Source: a virus
Length of the DNA: 32,261 nucleotides
Virus record (IMG/VR): IMGVR_UViG_3300010151_000071
Location: 1-32,261 of that record
Reading direction: 5' to 3' (one strand)
Shown here: positions 13,259 to 22,058 of the stretch, one piece after another
Position numbering within the stretch: position 1 is the first letter of the stretch
How the letters are laid out: every line of letters starts with the position of its first letter
Made by a program: the position numbers and the translations under genes
The notes under the pieces: generated by a model
Seen by the model: the letters and a program-made list of their open reading frames with translations, nothing else
What the model was told of the DNA's origin: nothing
The model's database searches: none

Positions 13259-16200
13259 ATGTCATCATCAATAGCTAGAAAGTTTAGATTTGTATCGCCG
13301 GGCATATTCCTTAGAGAAGTTGACAACTCACAGCTTCCTAGACTACCTGATGCCATGGGTCCAACAATCATTGGTCGTTACCCGCAGGGCCCTGCAATGC
13401 GCCCCCACAAGGTTCGCTCGTTAGCAGAGTTTGTTGAAACATTTGGAAATCCTGTTCCCGGCGCCTCTTCCGGCGATGTCTGGAGAGAGGGCAACAAAAC
13501 GGGCCCAACCTATGCCGCATATGCCGCATTTGCTTGGTTGAACGCCGGCGTAGCGCCTGCAAACATCTTCCGTCTTCTTGGTGACGAGCACGATCAGAAT
13601 GATGGTACGGTTCTAGCTAGCGCAGGATGGACAACAACTAGTCCTTCAACAACATCAACCGCGGTAAATCCAGCAGCAGCATTAGCCAACAACGGCGGCG
13701 CCTACGGTCTTTGGCTTATCCCATCGAGTTCTGATATGCAAAATGTGAAAGGAACATCTTTGGGAACAGGCTCTCTTGCGGCTATTTGGTATGTACGCGA
13801 AGGCGCTGTTGTGCTTAAGGGCAAACAGACATCAAACCAGTTGCAGTCGGCTGTAACTGCCATAACTGGCAACGCCGTTATGATTCATTCCGAAGATAGC
13901 AGTTATACATATCAGGCACAGATACTTGATACATCATTCAACGCACTCTATACAACAAAATTCAACTTCGATAGAAATTCAGAAAACTATATTCGTAAAG
14001 TATTCAACACCGATCCCATTCTTACAAACACTAGCGTCGTCGACTCTACTACAGTTAAAGAAGGCAAGGGCAAGTATTGGCTTGGCGAGACATTTGAAAG
14101 CAATCTTTTCAATATTCTCGGCGCCTCCGGAGATTCTTATGGTGTAATTATGCCTATGAATTCTAGCTCTGCCGGACAGTATGCATCTGGGAGTGCCGTC
14201 ACCGTTGGATATGAAGATCATTTAGAAGGATTCCAAAACCCTGAATCCGGTTGGTTCTTCTCGCAGGATTTGAGCACCAACAATGCTGATTATGCAGCAG
14301 AGCGCATGACGAAGCTGTTCAAGTTTCACGGCATTGACTCCGGAGAGTGGATCCAAAACAATATTAAGATTTCTATTGCTGACATCAAGGCAGCAACCAA
14401 CTTATCAAACCCATATGGTACATTTACTGTTCAGATCCGACGAGCTTCGGATTCCGACAATGTACCAGTTATTCTTGAGCAATTCACAAATTGTAGCCTG
14501 AACCCTGCTTCTGCTGACTATGTTGCAGCGAAGATCGGTGATGTGTATATGTCATTTGATTATAGCACCAATCGTCTTAGAGAATATGGACATTATGCCA
14601 ACCAATCTCGTTTCGTTCGCATTGAGATGAACCCGTCTGTTGATAATGGCACAGCCGACACAGAGGTTCTTCCGTTCGGTGTCTTCGGCCCCATTCGTCC
14701 AACCAGTTGGATGGTAAGATCAAATGATGGCGATGATGGTACCGGCGGAACAGTTATGTTTAATCCGGTAACCTTTGCCGGCGTCGGCTACACAGCCCGG
14801 AAGGTTCGCCTGGCTGACACCTATTCTACCGGCAGAGGAGGCACATTTGTAACTCTTTCAGATGAAACCAAGAAACTGTGCGCCTCGCAGCATGATCCTT
14901 CTGGCCTTACCAACATTACCTTTGGGGAAGGACAGGTTTACAGCGACGGCACAACCGGCGCGTTATCTGCCGGCCAGTATCGATATACAGCATCCTATGA
15001 GTTTCCAAGGACTCTTTTCAGAATCTCAGCATCAGACGGTGGCATCGGTGATCCAAAAGATGCTTACTTCGGCTTGCAAACCGGCAAGACTCATACTGAT
15101 GTAACCTTTGACCCCGGTTATGTCGATTACATCCGGCGTTTACCTGCTGGATATGCTCAGACTGACACAATCACCGGCCCAGGCTCTGACAGGGAATACT
15201 CTTGGGTATTTTCTCTTGATGATGTGAGAACGACTATTGATGGAGACATTTCCAAGTCCGCATTCTTCAAGTCAGGCTCAAGAAGAGATGGCGATTCTTT
15301 GACTGCCATGAGTTCTTCCTACAAGCAAATTTTGGATGAGGGTTACGACAGATTTACATCGCCTCTATACGGCGGATTTGATGGCTGGGATGTCTATGAA
15401 GCCGAGCCGCTAGCTAACGCACGCATCTCTTCTACTGATACGCAATATACAAACTATGCCTATAACACTGTCAAGCGCGCCATTGATACTTGCTCCGATC
15501 CAGAATTTGTCGAAACTAACTTGATGGCTGTCCCTGGCTTAACTGCTAAGAACCTTACCAAGCATCTTGTCGACACATGTGAGGCACGCGCTGATGCCAT
15601 GGCTGTTATCGATATCGAAGATGTCTATACGCCATTCACAGAGAACACCAATTCGTTCCAAAGCAATGTTGGCACTGTAGCTTCCGCAATTAGCTCCCTA
15701 AGATCCAGAGACATCAACTCTAGCTACGCGGCAGCCTATTATCCTTGGGTTCAGATTAGAGATCCGAGTACTTCGAAACTTGTTTGGACACCCCCCTCTG
15801 TCGCCGCGCTTGGAACATACGCTTCTTCGGAGGCTAAGTCTGAGCTTTGGTTCGCTCCTGCTGGGTTCACCCGCGGCGGCCTCACCACAGGCGCCGGAGG
15901 AATTCCAGTTGTCAATGTGACAGAGAGAGTCGTGAGAAGTGATCGTGATAGTCTATATACCGCCAACATTAATCCAATTGCAGCATTTCCGGCAGAAGGA
16001 ATCGTCGTGTTTGGGCAAAAAACTCTTCAGGTAACGCCATCGGCTCTTGACAGAATCAATGTCCGTCGTTTGATGATTTACTTGAAGAAGGAAGTCTCCA
16101 GAATGGCAGCAACTATTCTATTTGATCAGAATGTCCAAGCTACTTGGACTAGGTTCAAGAATAAAGTTGAGCCATTTCTCGCTAGCGTACAAACTAGACT

Positions 16201-16366
16201 TGGTTTGACAGAATTTAAAGTTGTTCTTGATGAAACAACAACAACTGCTGACTTGATTGACAGAAATATTTTGTATGCTAAGATTTTCTTGAAGCCTGCA
16301 AGGGCAATTGAGTTCATCGCGATTGATTTTGTCATAACAAGAACAGGCGCCTCATTTGACGATTAA
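13259..16366 (+). CDS. 18: Tail sheath protein, T4 gp18-like (copy A)
   Basis: Contractile sheath subunit. The 1035-residue protein is much larger than T4 gp18 (659). Residues 9-30 (FVSPGIFLREVDNSQLP) are the usual sheath N-terminus, which links neighbouring subunits. The conserved core is at the C-terminal end: about 735-800 (SRDINSSYAAAYYPWVQIRDP near 817) and residues 925-1035, including RINVRRLMIYLKKEVSRMAA, then LFDQNVQATWTRF and FLKPARAIEFIAIDFVITRT. The middle third (about 150-620) is extra, poorly conserved beta-rich sequence, probably domains facing outward on the sheath. A nearly parallel gene follows after 23 bases. Ribosome binding site CAGGAG. Assignment is secure; which copy builds the main sheath is unknown. 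Confidence 0.9.
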   Translation: MSSSIARKFRFVSPGIFLREVDNSQLPRLPDAMGPTIIGRYPQGPAMRPHKVRSLAEFVETFGNPVPGASSGDVWREGNKTGPTYAAYAAFAWLNAGVAPANIFRLLGDEHDQNDGTVLASAGWTTTSPSTTSTAVNPAAALANNGGAYGLWLIPSSSDMQNVKGTSLGTGSLAAIWYVREGAVVLKGKQTSNQLQSAVTAITGNAVMIHSEDSSYTYQAQILDTSFNALYTTKFNFDRNSENYIRKVFNTDPILTNTSVVDSTTVKEGKGKYWLGETFESNLFNILGASGDSYGVIMPMNSSSAGQYASGSAVTVGYEDHLEGFQNPESGWFFSQDLSTNNADYAAERMTKLFKFHGIDSGEWIQNNIKISIADIKAATNLSNPYGTFTVQIRRASDSDNVPVILEQFTNCSLNPASADYVAAKIGDVYMSFDYSTNRLREYGHYANQSRFVRIEMNPSVDNGTADTEVLPFGVFGPIRPTSWMVRSNDGDDGTGGTVMFNPVTFAGVGYTARKVRLADTYSTGRGGTFVTLSDETKKLCASQHDPSGLTNITFGEGQVYSDGTTGALSAGQYRYTASYEFPRTLFRISASDGGIGDPKDAYFGLQTGKTHTDVTFDPGYVDYIRRLPAGYAQTDTITGPGSDREYSWVFSLDDVRTTIDGDISKSAFFKSGSRRDGDSLTAMSSSYKQILDEGYDRFTSPLYGGFDGWDVYEAEPLANARISSTDTQYTNYAYNTVKRAIDTCSDPEFVETNLMAVPGLTAKNLTKHLVDTCEARADAMAVIDIEDVYTPFTENTNSFQSNVGTVASAISSLRSRDINSSYAAAYYPWVQIRDPSTSKLVWTPPSVAALGTYASSEAKSELWFAPAGFTRGGLTTGAGGIPVVNVTERVVRSDRDSLYTANINPIAAFPAEGIVVFGQKTLQVTPSALDRINVRRLMIYLKKEVSRMAATILFDQNVQATWTRFKNKVEPFLASVQTRLGLTEFKVVLDETTTTADLIDRNILYAKIFLKPARAIEFIAIDFVITRTGASFDD

Positions 16367-16389: not shown

Positions 16390-19300
16390 ATGTCATCATC
16401 AATCGCTAGAAAATTTAGATTTGTATCGCCGGGGATATTTCTTCGTGAAATAGATAATTCCCATATACCTAGGCTGCCGGATGCTATGGGTCCAACAATT
16501 ATCGGGCGCTTTGCTCAGGGCCCTGCAATGCGTCCGCATAAAATCCGCTCGTTGGCTGAATTTGTTGAAACATTTGGCAATCCAATTCCTGGCGCCTCGT
16601 CTGGTGATGTCTGGCGCGAAGGCAATAAGACTGGCCCGACTTATGCTGCTTATGCTGCGTTTGCTTGGTTGAACGCTGGTGAAGCGCCTGTAAACATTAT
16701 GCGCCTTCTCGGCGACGAACATGATCAGAATGATGGTACGGTGCTCGGCAGTGCTGGGTGGACAACGACTAAGCCGGGCACACCGAGCACGGCAGTCAGC
16801 GCTATAGGTGCTAGCACCGACGCCGATATGGCTGGCACAAATGTCAACGGTGGCGCATATGGTCTTTGGATTATTCCATCGGGCTCTGATATGCAAAATA
16901 TTGCGGGATCATCTTTGGGAACAGGCTCTCTTGCGGCTATTTGGTATATCCGAGAAGGAGCGGTGGTTCTTAAAGGCAAGCAGACATCAAACCAGTTGCA
17001 GTCGGCTGTAACTGCTATAACTGGCAACGCCGTTATGATTCATTCTGAAGATTCAAGCTATACTTTCCAAGCGCAAATTTTGAACGGTACTTATAGTCCG
17101 CTTTACACGACAAAATTCAATTTCGATAGAACTTCTGATAACTATATCCGCAAAGTTTTCAATACCGACCCAATTATAACCAATACCAGTGTTGTTGATT
17201 CGACAACTGTGAAAGAGGGCAAAGGCAAATATTGGCTTGGCGAGACATATGAGAGCAATTTGTTTAATGTCGTTGGCTCGTCCGGCGATTCTTATGGTGT
17301 GATTCTGCCAATCCACTCCGGAACAATCAATGACGATGCTCATGGTTCCGGCTCGGCTGTTGTTGGATACGAAGATCACCTAGAGGGATTCAAAAACCCT
17401 GAATCTGGTTGGTTCTTCTCACAGGATTTGAGCACCAACAATGCTGACTACGCCGCGGAGCGTATGACCAAGGTATTTAAGTTCCATGGTATCGATGCTG
17501 GCGAGTGGCTCCAAAACAATATTAAGATTTCTATCGCAGATATTAAAGCATCTACGAGCCTTTCTAATCCATATGGAACTTTTACAGTACAACTGCGGAG
17601 AGCTTCGGATTCCGATAATGTTCCAGTCATCTTAGAACAGTACACCAATTGCAATTTAAATCCTGCTTCCGCGGACTATGTTGCGGCAAAGATTGGCGAC
17701 AAGTATATGTCATTTGATTATAGTACAAACAGGCTTCGCGAGTATGGGCAATATAATAATCAATCTAGTTTCATTCGTATTGAGATGAATCCTTCTGTTG
17801 AAAATGGAACAGCAGATCCAGAAGTTTTGCCATTCGGTGTCTTCGGCCCAATCCGGCCGTTTAGTTGGCGCGTCCGATCCTGTGACGGCGGCGACGGCGC
17901 CACTGGGACACCATTCCTGAAAATCGAGAAACATGCTAATGATGATGACTGCGTACGCAGAACTCCCGCAGATGGAAAATCCGAAGCAACAATTACTATT
18001 GCTGTAGGTACGGTTGATAACATCGGCGCCGGCGATGTTATCACTCTAGTGTCTACTGACGGAACAACAATCACTTGTACACTAAATGGAGTAGGGGGGA
18101 CAACAACTTCCGCAGCAACAGACGGGAATGTCGAAGGCGCTACTTATGCATCGAGCATGGCTGATGCTCTTCAAGCAACGGCTCAGGCAAGTACAATTGC
18201 GACAGCCATAAATTATAGTAACTACTTTACTGCAACTAATAGCGCCAATGTTGTTACTGTAACACAAGCAACCGGCGGCAGGACAGGCAATACGACAATT
18301 ACAATAACAGAACTTGGCGCCACAGGCATGGCTAAAACAGACTTTGTTGGCGGCGCCGATCTCATCGGCACATTCGTTACCGTTGACAAAGATCTTATTG
18401 CCAGTAATTACGACCGCGATGGCCTCACAAGCATTACCTTTGGAGAAGCACAGGTTAAAAGCGACGGCACAACCGGCGCCGGTTCAGCAGGCCAGTATCG
18501 TTATACAGCATCCTATGAGTTCCCTAGAACTTTGTTTAGAATTTCGGCTTCCGATGGCGGCATTGGTAATCCAAAAAATGCCTACTTCGGACTTCAGACG
18601 GGAGTAACGCATACCGATGTGTCTTTTGATACAGGCTATGGCGATTATCTCCGGAGATTGCCGGCAGGGTACGGACAAGTCGACACTATAACTGGCCCTC
18701 CAACAGATAGGGCTTATTCTTGGGTATTCTCACTTGATGATGTGAAGACTGTTAACTACGACGGATCCCTTTATTCAATTGCGAAGTCCGCATACTTCCG
18801 TTCTGGATCGCGAAGGGATGGTGATTCCTTGACAGCTTTGAGTTCTTCTTACAAACAGATTCTTACTGAAGGTTACGACCGTTTCACTACTCCGCTTTAT
18901 GGAGGCTTTGATGGCTGGGATGTCTACGAAGCCGAGCCTCTTGCCAATGCGCGTATCTCTTCTACGGACACACAGTACACCAATTACGCTTATAATACTG
19001 TTAAACGAGCAATTGACACATGCGCCGATCCAGAGTTTGTTGAAATGAATATGATGGCTGTTCCCGGCTTGACTGCTAAGAACCTTACCAAACATCTCAT
19101 TGAAACCTGCGAAGCACGGGCAGATGCCATGGCAGTCATTGACATTGAAGATGTTTATACTCCGTTCACCGAGAATACGAATTCATTCCAAAGCAATGTT
19201 GGCTCAGTGTCTTCGGCAATCTCTTCGCTGAGAAGCCGTGACATTAATTCAAGTTATGCAGCAGCTTATTATCCTTGGGTTCAGATTAGAGATCCGAATA

Positions 19301-19896
19301 CCTCCAAGCTTGTTTGGACACCACCTTCGGTTGTGGCTCTTGGAACTTATGCTTCCTCAGAGGCTAAGTCTGAGCTTTGGTTCGCACCTGCCGGATTTAC
19401 TAGGGGTGGACTGACAGATGGAGCAGGAGGCTTGCAAGCCGTAAAAGTGACAGAGAGAGTCGTGAGGAAAGATCGCGACAAGCTTTACACAGCTAATATT
19501 AACCCAATTGCGACATTCCCCACTGAAGGCATTGTTGTCTTCGGACAAAAGACTTTACAAGTCACTCCATCAGCGCTGGATAGAATCAATGTCCGTCGCT
19601 TGATGATATATCTGAAGAAGGAAGTTTCTCGCATGGCTGCAACGATTTTGTTTGATCAAAATGTCCAAGCTACTTGGACTAGGTTTAAGAATAAAGTTGA
19701 GCCGTTCCTTTCCAGTGTTCAAACTAGGCTTGGCTTGACAGAATTTAAAGTTCTGCTTGACGAAACAACGACGACTGATGATTTAATTGATAGAAATATT
19801 TTGTATGCTAAGATTTTCTTGAAGCCTGCAAGAGCTATCGAATTCATTGCTATCGACTTTGTCATATCAAGAACAGGGGCTTCATTTGACGATTGA
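16390..19896 (+). CDS. 18: Tail sheath protein, T4 gp18-like (copy B, with inserted domain)
   Basis: Second tandem sheath gene, 1168 residues. It aligns with copy A along its whole length: identical first 20 residues, same core motifs (YYPWVQIRDPNTSKLVW, RRLMIYLKKEVSRMAA, IFLKPARAIEFIAIDFV) and same end (RTGASFDD). The main difference is about 125 extra residues near 528-653, with a repeated Thr/Ala/Gly pattern (ATITIAVGTVDNIGAGDVIT, then TATNSANVVTVTQATGGRTG) like small beta domains found in many phage structural proteins. Copy A instead has a short unrelated stretch. The DNA is diverged at third positions but contains near-identical patches. Ribosome binding site ACAGGAGAG. Both copies look intact, so they may form a mixed sheath or serve alternative tails. 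Confidence 0.9.
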   Translation: MSSSIARKFRFVSPGIFLREIDNSHIPRLPDAMGPTIIGRFAQGPAMRPHKIRSLAEFVETFGNPIPGASSGDVWREGNKTGPTYAAYAAFAWLNAGEAPVNIMRLLGDEHDQNDGTVLGSAGWTTTKPGTPSTAVSAIGASTDADMAGTNVNGGAYGLWIIPSGSDMQNIAGSSLGTGSLAAIWYIREGAVVLKGKQTSNQLQSAVTAITGNAVMIHSEDSSYTFQAQILNGTYSPLYTTKFNFDRTSDNYIRKVFNTDPIITNTSVVDSTTVKEGKGKYWLGETYESNLFNVVGSSGDSYGVILPIHSGTINDDAHGSGSAVVGYEDHLEGFKNPESGWFFSQDLSTNNADYAAERMTKVFKFHGIDAGEWLQNNIKISIADIKASTSLSNPYGTFTVQLRRASDSDNVPVILEQYTNCNLNPASADYVAAKIGDKYMSFDYSTNRLREYGQYNNQSSFIRIEMNPSVENGTADPEVLPFGVFGPIRPFSWRVRSCDGGDGATGTPFLKIEKHANDDDCVRRTPADGKSEATITIAVGTVDNIGAGDVITLVSTDGTTITCTLNGVGGTTTSAATDGNVEGATYASSMADALQATAQASTIATAINYSNYFTATNSANVVTVTQATGGRTGNTTITITELGATGMAKTDFVGGADLIGTFVTVDKDLIASNYDRDGLTSITFGEAQVKSDGTTGAGSAGQYRYTASYEFPRTLFRISASDGGIGNPKNAYFGLQTGVTHTDVSFDTGYGDYLRRLPAGYGQVDTITGPPTDRAYSWVFSLDDVKTVNYDGSLYSIAKSAYFRSGSRRDGDSLTALSSSYKQILTEGYDRFTTPLYGGFDGWDVYEAEPLANARISSTDTQYTNYAYNTVKRAIDTCADPEFVEMNMMAVPGLTAKNLTKHLIETCEARADAMAVIDIEDVYTPFTENTNSFQSNVGSVSSAISSLRSRDINSSYAAAYYPWVQIRDPNTSKLVWTPPSVVALGTYASSEAKSELWFAPAGFTRGGLTDGAGGLQAVKVTERVVRKDRDKLYTANINPIATFPTEGIVVFGQKTLQVTPSALDRINVRRLMIYLKKEVSRMAATILFDQNVQATWTRFKNKVEPFLSSVQTRLGLTEFKVLLDETTTTDDLIDRNILYAKIFLKPARAIEFIAIDFVISRTGASFDD

Positions 19897-19964: not shown

Positions 19965-20540
19965 ATGGCATTTTGGACTGATTCAACCGGACAGGACCCG
20001 AAGAGACAATATAGATTTTTGGTAGTTATTGGTAACTATCCAGAAGGAGCGACTTGGTACGCCAAGAAGGTAGATAAGCCTGCTTTTGCAGTGACAGAAG
20101 CAAAACATAACTACCTGAACCATACTTTTTATTATCCCGGCAGAGTTGAGTGGCAGGAAGTTGGAGTAACGCTTGTTGATCCAGTCAGCCCAGACGCAGT
20201 GGCGAATACACTGGCAATTGTTCAGGCTTCAGGGTATAAGCCTCCTTCAAATTTCACTGAGACTACAACCATGTCTAAAGCAGCATCAATTGCTTCTCTT
20301 GGCGGCGTTGTCGTCCAAATGATTGATCATGCTGGAAATGCAATTGAGACTTGGACACTAAACGGCGCATGGATTAAGGATGCAAAGTTTGGAACACTTG
20401 ATTATTCTGGCGACGATTTGATTGAAATAGAGCTTAAGTTCAGATATGATTGGGCTGATTGCGTAACGGCAGCCAATGCTGAGGTGGCAGTCGCAGGCGC
20501 CCCACAGAATGATTTCTTTAAAATGGGCACAAGCTCTTAA
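19965..20540 (+). CDS. 19: Tail tube protein, T4 gp19-like
   Basis: Subunit of the inner tail tube through which DNA passes. 191 residues (T4 gp19 has 163). The N-terminal RQYRFLVVIG (about 14-23), the KKVDKPAFAVTEAKHNYLNH segment (about 34-53) and the following FYYPGRVEWQEVGVTLVDPV (about 55-74) are characteristic of gp19-type tubes, with the beta-sandwich that stacks into hexameric rings. The C-terminal half has ETWTLNGAWIKDAKFGTLDY and IEIELKFRYDWADC, both usual in the family. Directly downstream of the sheath genes and upstream of the chaperone/tape-measure genes, as expected. Ribosome binding site AGGAGA. Confidence 0.9.
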   Translation: MAFWTDSTGQDPKRQYRFLVVIGNYPEGATWYAKKVDKPAFAVTEAKHNYLNHTFYYPGRVEWQEVGVTLVDPVSPDAVANTLAIVQASGYKPPSNFTETTTMSKAASIASLGGVVVQMIDHAGNAIETWTLNGAWIKDAKFGTLDYSGDDLIEIELKFRYDWADCVTAANAEVAVAGAPQNDFFKMGTSS

Positions 20541-20565: not shown

Positions 20566-21426
20566 ATGAGTAGAAATAATCAGGAGCGTCTCGGCGCTCG
20601 CCAGAGCGATGCAGGGATCCCGATTCCCGAAACCGCCGGCGAGAACTCAGAGTCGACTTTTTCTTTTACGACACCAACGGAATTCGTTGATTTGCCAACC
20701 GGCGGTCGTTTTTATCCCGAAGGGCATCCCCTTCATGGCAAAGAGCATATAGAAATACGCTATATGACTGCCAAAGACGAGGATATTTTATCTTCGAAAT
20801 CTCTCCTTAAAAAGGGAGTCGCCATCGACAGATTGTTGCAGAACATCATTGTTGATAAGTCGATTAACACTAACGATCTTTATATCGGCGATAAAAATGC
20901 AGTATTGGTTGCCGCCCGAATTACGGGATATGGCGAAGATTACGATGCAAGGATTACTTGTCCATCGTGCATGTCGTCAATTGAGCATACATTTGATTTG
21001 TCAAAAATTAAAAATACTGATGGTGCCAAATGGGAAGATTACAACATTAAAGCACTTCATAATGATAGGTTTTTAGTATCTCTCCCTATAAGCAAAGTAG
21101 AAGTAGAGGTTAAGCTTCTCAAGAGCAAAGATGAAAACTATTTGGTTAAGCTAGCAGAGAACAAAAAGAAGAAAAAATTGCCAGAATCGTCTTTGACGGA
21201 TCAAATTAGAGCAATAATCGTCTCTGTCAATGGCGACACTTCAGATAAGAAAGTTATATCTTTCATCGAGCACATGCCAGCTAGGGATTCTCGTTATCTT
21301 CGAACAGCGTATGATCTAGTGGTTCCCAATGTGAATATGAAACAAATATTCCCTTGTAACTCTTGTGAGTTTGAGCAGGAGGTGGCGGTACCGTTTACCG
21401 CCGGCTTTTTTTGGCCTAACCGATGA
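20566..21426 (+). CDS. 26: gp26-like baseplate hub / tail assembly chaperone
   Basis: 286-residue protein of the T4 gp26-like family. Residues 37-66 (PTEFVDLPTGGRFYPEGHPL and on) and 64-75 (EIRYMTAKDEDI) are the family signature. Two CxxC pairs (Cys132/Cys135 and Cys264/Cys267) probably bind zinc. In T4, gp26 is linked to baseplate hub formation; in this gene order (tube, this gene, overlapping ORF, tape measure) it holds the place of the tail assembly chaperone of lambda (gpG). Near the 3' end, a hairpin (21384-21402) precedes seven T residues (21406-21412), and the frame ends 12 bases later at TGA (21424). The downstream gp51-like frame lacks a convincing start and is in the +1 frame, so part of the product may be extended by frameshifting to about 360 residues. 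Ribosome binding site AGAGG. Confidence 0.8.
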   Translation: MSRNNQERLGARQSDAGIPIPETAGENSESTFSFTTPTEFVDLPTGGRFYPEGHPLHGKEHIEIRYMTAKDEDILSSKSLLKKGVAIDRLLQNIIVDKSINTNDLYIGDKNAVLVAARITGYGEDYDARITCPSCMSSIEHTFDLSKIKNTDGAKWEDYNIKALHNDRFLVSLPISKVEVEVKLLKSKDENYLVKLAENKKKKKLPESSLTDQIRAIIVSVNGDTSDKKVISFIEHMPARDSRYLRTAYDLVVPNVNMKQIFPCNSCEFEQEVAVPFTAGFFWPNR

Positions 21427-21649
21427 TTATATAGCTTCAGTATACGAAGAATTCTTTTTACTGAAGTATCATGGTGGCTGGAGCTTTGTAGAAGCCTATA
21501 ATTTGCCCGTTGTGATGAGACGATGGTTTTTGACCCGCTTGGCAGAACAGCTTACCAAAGAAAAAGAGCAGATGGAAAAAGCGAACAAGGGCAACAAGAG
21601 GACATACAATGTCGGAGAAGGTCCAGGCATTGGCCCAAGAAAAGGCTGA
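21365..21649 (+). CDS. 51: gp51-like ORF, probably reached by frameshift
   Basis: Overlaps the gp26-like gene by 62 bases in the +1 frame. The conserved part starts at GGC 21413: residues GLTDDYIASVYEEFFLLKYH, followed by GGWSFVEAYNLPVVMRRWF and a charged helix (AEQLTKEKEQMEKANKGNK), like gp51-type hub assembly proteins of T4-related phages. As a separate gene the only upstream start is GTG 21365, which has no Shine-Dalgarno and would add an Arg-rich peptide copied from the other frame; the next ATG in frame lies inside the conserved region. A +1 (or -2) shift on the T7 run at 21406-21412 would join it neatly to the gp26-like protein, giving a G-GT-type chaperone. The coordinates give the maximum open frame; the true expressed form is probably the fusion. 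Confidence 0.6.
   Translation: MSLSRRWRYRLPPAFFGLTDDYIASVYEEFFLLKYHGGWSFVEAYNLPVVMRRWFLTRLAEQLTKEKEQMEKANKGNKRTYNVGEGPGIGPRKG
21383..21412 (+). promoter_or_regulatory. Hairpin plus T7 run at the reading-frame junction
   Basis: GGCGGTA (21384-21390) pairs with TACCGCC (21396-21402) around a CCGTT loop, with an added T-G wobble (21383/21403), then GC and seven T residues. By shape it is an intrinsic terminator, but it lies inside the coding sequence upstream of essential-looking genes. It could act as an attenuator, or as a slippage site for ribosome or RNA polymerase that produces the gp26-gp51 fusion. Confidence 0.6.
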
Positions 21650-21677
21650 AAGTAGAAATGCTTTCAGCTTTCTTTTC
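21641..21677 (+). terminator. Rho-independent terminator after gp51-like ORF
   Basis: GCTGAAAG (21645-21652) pairs with CTTTCAGC (21661-21668) with an 8-base loop; AAA/TTT extend the stem past a one-base bulge; TTTCTTTTC follows. The stop codon TGA (21647-21649) lies inside the stem. A variant of the candidate promoter element (TACTAATTATTTAAT, 21685-21699) follows. Confidence 0.82.
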
Positions 21678-21716: not shown

Positions 21717-22058
21717 ATGGAAACGATCAACGAAGACAAGATAAATTCAATTGTAATCGACCTTGACGAACTTAAGAGCGGGCACCTTAATGAGGGATAT
21801 TTCGATATTTTCGGATCTTGGATTAAGATTCTTCTGGGGCGCATGTTTAATATTTCTTTCGGTCCAGATATCACTGTCAAAGGCTCAGAAAGAGATGTTA
21901 GATCTTTTGCAAAGACACTGGGCAGAGAAAAGCGATATGCTCAGGCTGTTAAAGATTACGGCTTGGATAATCCCAGAACATATAAAAACCGAGCACTGCT
22001 TGATAAGGCTGTAAAGTCATTTGAGAAAATCACAAGCCTCAAATGGCCCTTCAGATAG
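21717..22058 (+). CDS. Small conserved tail-region protein, unknown
   Basis: 113-residue protein. Residues 1-25 are acidic and helical; residues 26-45 (GYFDIFGSWIKILLGRMFN) are amphipathic and could contact a membrane or a tail protein; residues 50-113 are basic, with GSERDVRSFAKTLGREKRYA, then YGLDNPRTYKNRALLDKAV and an end TSLKWPFR. Proteins with this pattern occur beside tape-measure genes in marine T4-like phages, but no function is known to me. Ribosome binding site CAGGGAGG, strong. Follows a terminator and a candidate promoter variant, so it probably begins the transcript that includes the tape measure, 12 bases downstream. Confidence 0.72.
   Translation: METINEDKINSIVIDLDELKSGHLNEGYFDIFGSWIKILLGRMFNISFGPDITVKGSERDVRSFAKTLGREKRYAQAVKDYGLDNPRTYKNRALLDKAVKSFEKITSLKWPFR

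Follow-up and report, generated by a model that had tools for sequence, protein, structure and literature searches.

How are two proteins made from overlapping reading frames when the second frame has no convincing start of its own? The question is raised by the DNA analysed here, IMG/VR virus record IMGVR_UViG_3300010151_000071 over its whole length of 32,261 nucleotides (nt; hereafter the window). In this 32-kb record of a marine phage, the 3′ end of a gene for a gp26-like protein is overlapped in the +1 frame by a gp51-like open reading frame (ORF). The evidence for a frameshift presented here is comparative.

Tail assembly chaperones of the G/GT type are known with frameshifts in the −1, −2 and +1 directions, and a review described the G/GT frameshift as widely conserved “except T4” (PMC5009743). 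The proteins gp26 and gp51 of T4 are listed as hub assembly chaperones, gp51 being essential and of unknown function (PMC3004832). Among the open-access papers searched, none reported a frameshift in gp26/gp51 or described these two proteins as G/GT.

An initial annotation of the window had interpreted the pair as gp26 and gp51, the cognates of G and GT, fused by a programmed +1/−2 frameshift or by transcriptional slippage. We report that the locus very probably encodes a G/GT-type chaperone pair made from one gene by +1 programmed ribosomal frameshifting, with gp26 and gp51 as the T4 counterparts after a gene duplication. What the sequences show is the conservation of the site, the frames, the codons and the hairpin potential, together with homologies and gene order.

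Overlapping frames and their conservation

The gp26-like gene (G ORF; coordinates in Table 1) ends at TGA 21424–21426, downstream of a run of seven T at 21406–21412. Read in frame 0, the sequence there is GGC TTT TTT TGG CCT AAC CGA TGA, and in the +1 frame TTT GGC CTA ACC GAT GAT TAT, which encodes F-G-L-T-D-D-Y. The overlapping +1-frame ORF (T ORF) extends in full from 21365 to 21649. Its sole start 5′ of the conserved part is GTG 21365, which lacks a Shine-Dalgarno sequence, as initially annotated; the overlap, T run, stop codon and upstream hairpin had likewise been placed correctly to within a base. According to PHROG and Pfam matches, the pair lies between the tube and tape measure genes, a G/GT-like position, and the proposed order of tube, pair, small gene and tape measure is supported. 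A similar gene order occurs in loci L082 and L084 and in KVP40.

A scan of viral contigs yielded 80 IMG/VR relatives with 49–65% protein identity plus one near-identical contig, giving 66 distinct loci (window clade). A second scan with a distant alignment gave 74 distinct loci, kin of Microcystis phage Mel-JY01 (sister clade). The same overlap was found in nearly all of the 80 relatives; in the sister clade, 72 of 74 loci have the T domain in the +1 frame, L291 has it in the −1 frame, and in the remaining locus it was not detected. Because it is shared so widely, the overlap is, as judged from these alignments, neither a product of chance nor a sequencing error in the T run, an objection that the initial annotation had raised against itself. 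The junction comparison that it had called for also showed the T run to be kept in most relatives. Joining in the +1 direction further occurs in isolates infecting Microcystis, Flavobacterium, Listeria and Streptococcus and in Bacillus phage SP-15, and less surely in Rhodothermus phage RM378. The search of bacterial genomes gave one close relative, a contig of an actinomycete metagenome-assembled genome with the site TTT TTT TGG as in the window. A DNA-level search of GenBank phages with the window gave no match, the relatives there surfacing by protein search.

In 17 of the 66 window-clade loci the T frame contains no ATG, GTG or TTG after the last stop before its conserved part, and in 38 a start is present without a Shine-Dalgarno sequence. 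Hence the absence of a credible independent start for gp51, on which the initial annotation relied, holds for 55 of 66 loci, and the other 11 have a possible start with a Shine-Dalgarno sequence.

Codon constraint at the proposed shift site

Codon usage around the shift site deviates strongly from the background of these genes. At the second Phe codon, 65 of 66 window-clade loci have TTT and one has CTT (TTT background, 77% of Phe codons). It is followed by TGG in 65 of 66 loci, a codon found only 16 times elsewhere in all 66 genes, and then by CCT in 64 of 66, although CCT accounts for 25% of Pro codons. In 32 loci the codon 5′ of the Phe pair encodes Asp; it is GAC in 31 of these against a background of 33% (p=3e-14), which avoids the −1 heptamer U UUU UUU that GAT would create. 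As the base 5′ of the Phe pair is not T in 64 of 66 loci and the product frame is +1, a canonical −1 heptamer (X XXY YYZ) is not what the site offers. The sister clade likewise has TTT in the P site, apart from CTT in L301; its A-site codon is TGG, TAC or TTC and begins with T throughout.

The T run is broken in eleven loci of the two clades: TTC TTT TGG in L017, L028, L031, L041, L051 and L063, TTC TTT TAC in L297, TTT CTT TGG in L077, L301 and Flavobacterium phage immuto, and CTT TTT TGG, with six T left, in L271. In ten of them the longest run is only 3–4 T, so a long homopolymer is not conserved. All eleven keep UUU_U or CUU_U. Re-pairing of the P-site tRNA in the +1 direction is possible on UUU in 65 of 66 window-clade loci and on CUU in one, as well as on CUU_U in immuto and L301. 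Other isolates are compatible with slippage on UUU_C, namely Streptococcus phage GXN1 (TTT CGT), SP-15 (TTT CAC) and jumbo phage LR756508 (TTT CTA).

Alternatives to the proposed +1 slippage

Because the eleven broken runs keep UUU_U or CUU_U, we prefer +1 ribosomal slippage over a −2 shift or slippage of the polymerase. Of the mechanisms left open by the initial annotation, a programmed frameshift in the +1 direction is thus favoured, and joining by slippage at UUU_U most likely accounts for the codon patterns. In stem-loop-mediated transcriptional slippage, hairpin and T run would act on RNA polymerase and some mRNAs would carry one T fewer or two more. This would fit the hairpin immediately followed by seven T, which is also the first-listed terminator-like site of the region, and the retention of the seven T in most relatives. 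However, the frames are kept where the run is broken and polymerase slippage on 3–4 T is implausible; the broken-run loci of the window clade mostly retain the hairpin, and a run of eight T is avoided (2 of 66 loci have T as the last base of the codon before the run), which is unexpected if run length mattered. We therefore consider transcriptional slippage quite unlikely. A −2 ribosomal frameshift as in phage Mu would add one extra Phe, reach the identical final frame and be possible on UUU_UUU_U, but in the TTC TTT TGG and TTT CTT TGG relatives it would leave the tRNA mismatched on UCU or UUC, while pairing is preserved after a +1 shift; this alternative appears extremely improbable.

The T domain could also be translated alone, by reinitiation or internal initiation. 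In four bacterial loci resembling contractile injection systems (L126–L129), a gene for a short PF12322-like protein precedes a DUF6760 gene that has a GTG or ATG start of its own within the overlap; their DUF6760 protein looks like a free-standing T domain, and these genes look separately started, with no need of a frameshift. Moreover, the stop codon of G is closely followed by an ATG in 71 of 72 cyanophage-type loci, and some relatives of the window combine a Shine-Dalgarno sequence with an ATG in the T frame. Against separate translation in the window clade stand the 17 loci without any possible start codon, the position of the conserved residues FGL before the internal starts, and a codon constraint at the shift site that far exceeds what the protein needs. 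Separate genes are thus very unlikely here.

Upstream hairpin and Shine-Dalgarno-like element

The 21 nt 5′ of the Phe pair have a mean folding energy of −5.6 against −1.3 in synonymous shuffles, with a mean z of −3.2 (standard error (SE) 0.3; 43 representatives below 65% identity), compared with an average z of −0.16 (standard deviation 0.19) for 42 control windows elsewhere in the gene. The excess persists against column-specific codon pools (z −0.96, SE 0.16), which indicates that the pairing partners are coordinated. These per-sequence tests were chosen after RNAalifold gave no consensus. They argue for selection on a small hairpin immediately 5′ of the shift site, its 3′ edge usually lying 0–3 nt before the first Phe codon. 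Downstream structure is weak (z −0.67, SE 0.25), and an Rfam search gave no credible match.

In 54 of 66 loci a Shine-Dalgarno-like element lies at a fixed spacing of 19, 25 or 26 nt from the P-site codon, and the 30 Glu codons found at position −8 are without exception GAG, against a background of 37%. About 40 codons 5′ of the shift site, an 8-codon control window had a mean z of −1.75 in a first test with 66 relatives; in the second test the signal was weak (−0.6 nearby).

Relation to T4 gp26 and gp51

T4 gp26 and gp51 both match PF12322 and are thus paralogues. The longer gp51 consists of a gp26-type G domain plus about 48 extra C-terminal residues, and the T ORF of the window appears to correspond only to the ~45 C-terminal residues of T4 gp51 and not to gp51 in full. 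The idea that gp26 and gp51 are cognates of G and GT is retained as likely, whereas the window does not fuse a whole gp26 to a whole gp51: gp51 is itself the long form. Searches of whole records found two PF12322 genes in T4 and T4-type records and one in P-SSM2, HTVC008M, phiM12, PhiW-14, KVP40 and large window-clade contigs.

In these five single-gene phages T TTT TTY stands at the end of the PF12322 gene, and a domain resembling the C-terminus of gp51 is encoded in the −1 frame. In KVP40, the annotators had likened the small ORF to the last 40 residues of T4 gp51. All 72 cyanophage-type loci have TTT TTC at the site, and the codon before it is AGT, AAT, TCT or GCT; for 32 cyanophage-type representatives, the chance of a T-ending codon there in every case, given the amino acids encoded, is ~1e-8 if these are independent. 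Profile comparisons linked the cyanophage −1 domain to the gp51 C-terminus (E=3e-12), the window T domain to the cyanophage domain (E=5e-7) and the SP-15-group T domain to that of the window (E=3e-7), scores that none of 60 column shuffles reached. On a 236-kb cyanophage-type contig with only one PF12322 gene (L183, about 1501–2367), G and T share one frame across the shift site, TCT TTT TGG TTA GGA ATG; this in-frame fusion on a single contig is possibly an error.

A predicted structure of a T4-type gp51 (predicted local distance difference test (pLDDT) 90) has helices at 208–221, 226–231 and 234–247 after the G domain, which correspond to the T domain, and matches gp26-type hub proteins in BFVD. 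The AlphaFold2 model of the window G protein (pLDDT 85) gave Foldseek matches to baseplate hub and hub-assembly proteins of the gp26/gp51 type; a sequence search for solved structures matched neither the G nor the T family.

In an unrooted tree, gp51 forms one clade (support 100/99), which joins gp26 in a larger clade (98/96) that excludes the single-gene −1 lineages, while the +1 lineages are set off by a long branch (100/100). Since gp26 and gp51 together form one clade beside single-gene lineages, it is the T4 arrangement that looks derived, and the earlier view of the window as an intermediate form is not upheld. The two genes of T4 most likely go back to one duplication within the T4 group from a single-gene, frameshifting ancestor. 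In the T4-like phage Moon (L318, 11607–13245), the submitters placed a “GT-like fusion” tape measure chaperone on gp27/gp28, which conflicts with the assignment to gp26/gp51.

Proposed mechanism and comparison with known systems

The slip as such, including its direction and ratio, is inferred from these patterns, as are its stimulators, the chaperone function and the order of evolutionary events. Most ribosomes would stop at TGA 21424 and release the 286-aa PF12322 protein (G). A fraction would slip +1 at UUU_UGG, the P-site tRNA-Phe moving from 21409–21411 to 21410–21412 so that GGC is read in the A site, and would yield a 360-aa GT with the C-terminal T domain. Slippage may be promoted if the Trp codon UGG, which hardly occurs elsewhere in these genes, is decoded slowly and if the neighbouring 5′ hairpin refolds; the upstream Shine-Dalgarno-like sequence possibly adds to this. 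Bypassing in T4 gene 60 involves a 5′ hairpin, and by analogy a hairpin refolding behind the ribosome might pull it forward. G and GT would then bind the tape measure and recruit the tube protein, like lambda gpG/gpGT. In G/GT systems the long form is a minor product, and both proteins attach to the tape measure and are missing from the virion. In T4 the same roles would fall to gp26 (short, G) and gp51 (long, GT), made from two genes after the duplication.

Compared with lambda-type G/GT, the window pair belongs to PF12322, the family of T4 gp26/gp51 itself. T4 shares the G-domain family, with the T domain as an extension of gp51, but has two genes on opposite strands and no frameshift where the window phage has one PF12322 gene. 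Cyanophages and KVP40 resemble the window in having one such gene and a T domain in another frame, annotated there as separate genes; they differ in using the −1 frame with the heptamer U UUU UUC, and the cyanophages also in the ATG just after the stop.

The release factor 2 gene prfB is decoded by +1 re-pairing on CUU_U with a Shine-Dalgarno-like element lying a few nt further 5′ and a stop codon in the A site. The window clades share re-pairing on CUU_U/UUU_U and the upstream element, whereas their A-site codon is UGG (or UAC, UUC) and not a stop, the Shine-Dalgarno-like element is 19, 25 or 26 nt away and a hairpin lies in between. Stem-loop-mediated transcriptional slippage in bacterial insertion sequence elements has a hairpin directly before a homopolymer; the layout is like that of the window, but eleven of its relatives dispense with an unbroken T run.

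Several observations weigh against the proposed +1 frameshift and its link to T4. All counts are over kin sequences and do not represent independent events. The T domain lies in the −1 frame in L045 (around 4853) and L291 (around 2247), which may reflect a switch of direction or assembly errors; L045 has eight T, giving a −1 heptamer after GAT, plus an apparent 4-nt duplication. The 11 of 66 loci mentioned above have a possible T-frame start with a Shine-Dalgarno sequence. Compared directly, the window T domain and the T4 gp51 C-terminus show no significant similarity, the link being transitive through the cyanophages. RNAalifold gave no single consensus hairpin across the relatives, the stem register varying by sequence, and covariation in a fixed register is weak (46 of 500 shuffles were equally high). 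Finally, the spacing of the Shine-Dalgarno-like element (19 or 26 nt) differs from that known to stimulate +1 shifts.

On balance, we regard it as likely that T4-type contractile tails use G/GT chaperones, with gp26 as G and gp51 as GT; that frameshifting within a single gene prevails outside the T4 group (−1 in cyanophages and in Pelagibacter, Sinorhizobium, Delftia and KVP40 phages, +1 in the lineages of the window and of Firmicutes); that the T4 group swapped the frameshift for a duplication; and that UUU_UGG with a 5′ hairpin and a Shine-Dalgarno-like element is a new layout of stimulators. If gp26/gp51 are G/GT, the T4 exception to G/GT frameshifting vanishes and gp51 gains a directly testable function. 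The ratio of the two products would then be set in different phages by +1 slippage, −1 slippage or gene duplication, which makes these phages a natural series. Annotations would need correction as well: the long protein is missing where isolates have only gp26 or a startless “gp51” called.

Features of the region

The features surrounding the shift site are collected in Table 1.

Table 1 Features around the proposed +1 shift site in the window
Feature	Position	Strand	Basis
Tail tube protein (gp19/PHROG 4542-like), upstream neighbour	19965..20540	+	phrog_4542 E=6e-21
G ORF, gp26-like PF12322 protein, 286-aa short form, ending ...GFFWPNR*	20566..21426	+	PF12322 51.5 bits (cut-off 24.5); phrog_150 baseplate hub E=1e-16
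Shine-Dalgarno-like AGGAGG, 26 nt 5′ of the P-site codon	21377..21382	+	
Upstream stem-loop, 8 bp with 5-nt loop	21383..21403	+	also first-listed terminator-like site of the region
Shift site UUU UUU UGG CCU	21406..21417	+	codon comparison in two clades; +1 slip from 21409-21411 to 21410-21412 is a proposal
T ORF, +1 frame (F-GLTDDYIASVYEEFFLLKYHGGWSF...)	21410..21649	+	weak DUF6760 match E=9e-4
Predicted fusion product, 360 aa	join(20566..21411,21413..21649)	+	
Terminator-like hairpin at the T ORF 3′ end	21642..21671	+	match to the consensus only, with 13 pairs and a T-rich tail
Small gene, 113 aa, without family match, located between T ORF and tape measure	21717..22058	+	
Tape measure protein, 756 aa	22071..24341	+	phrog_167 E=6e-6 plus position

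Upstream of the tube gene, two tail sheath proteins are encoded in tandem at 13259–16366 and 16390–19896. With 1035 and 1168 aa they are unusually large, and both match phrog_23/phrog_10581.
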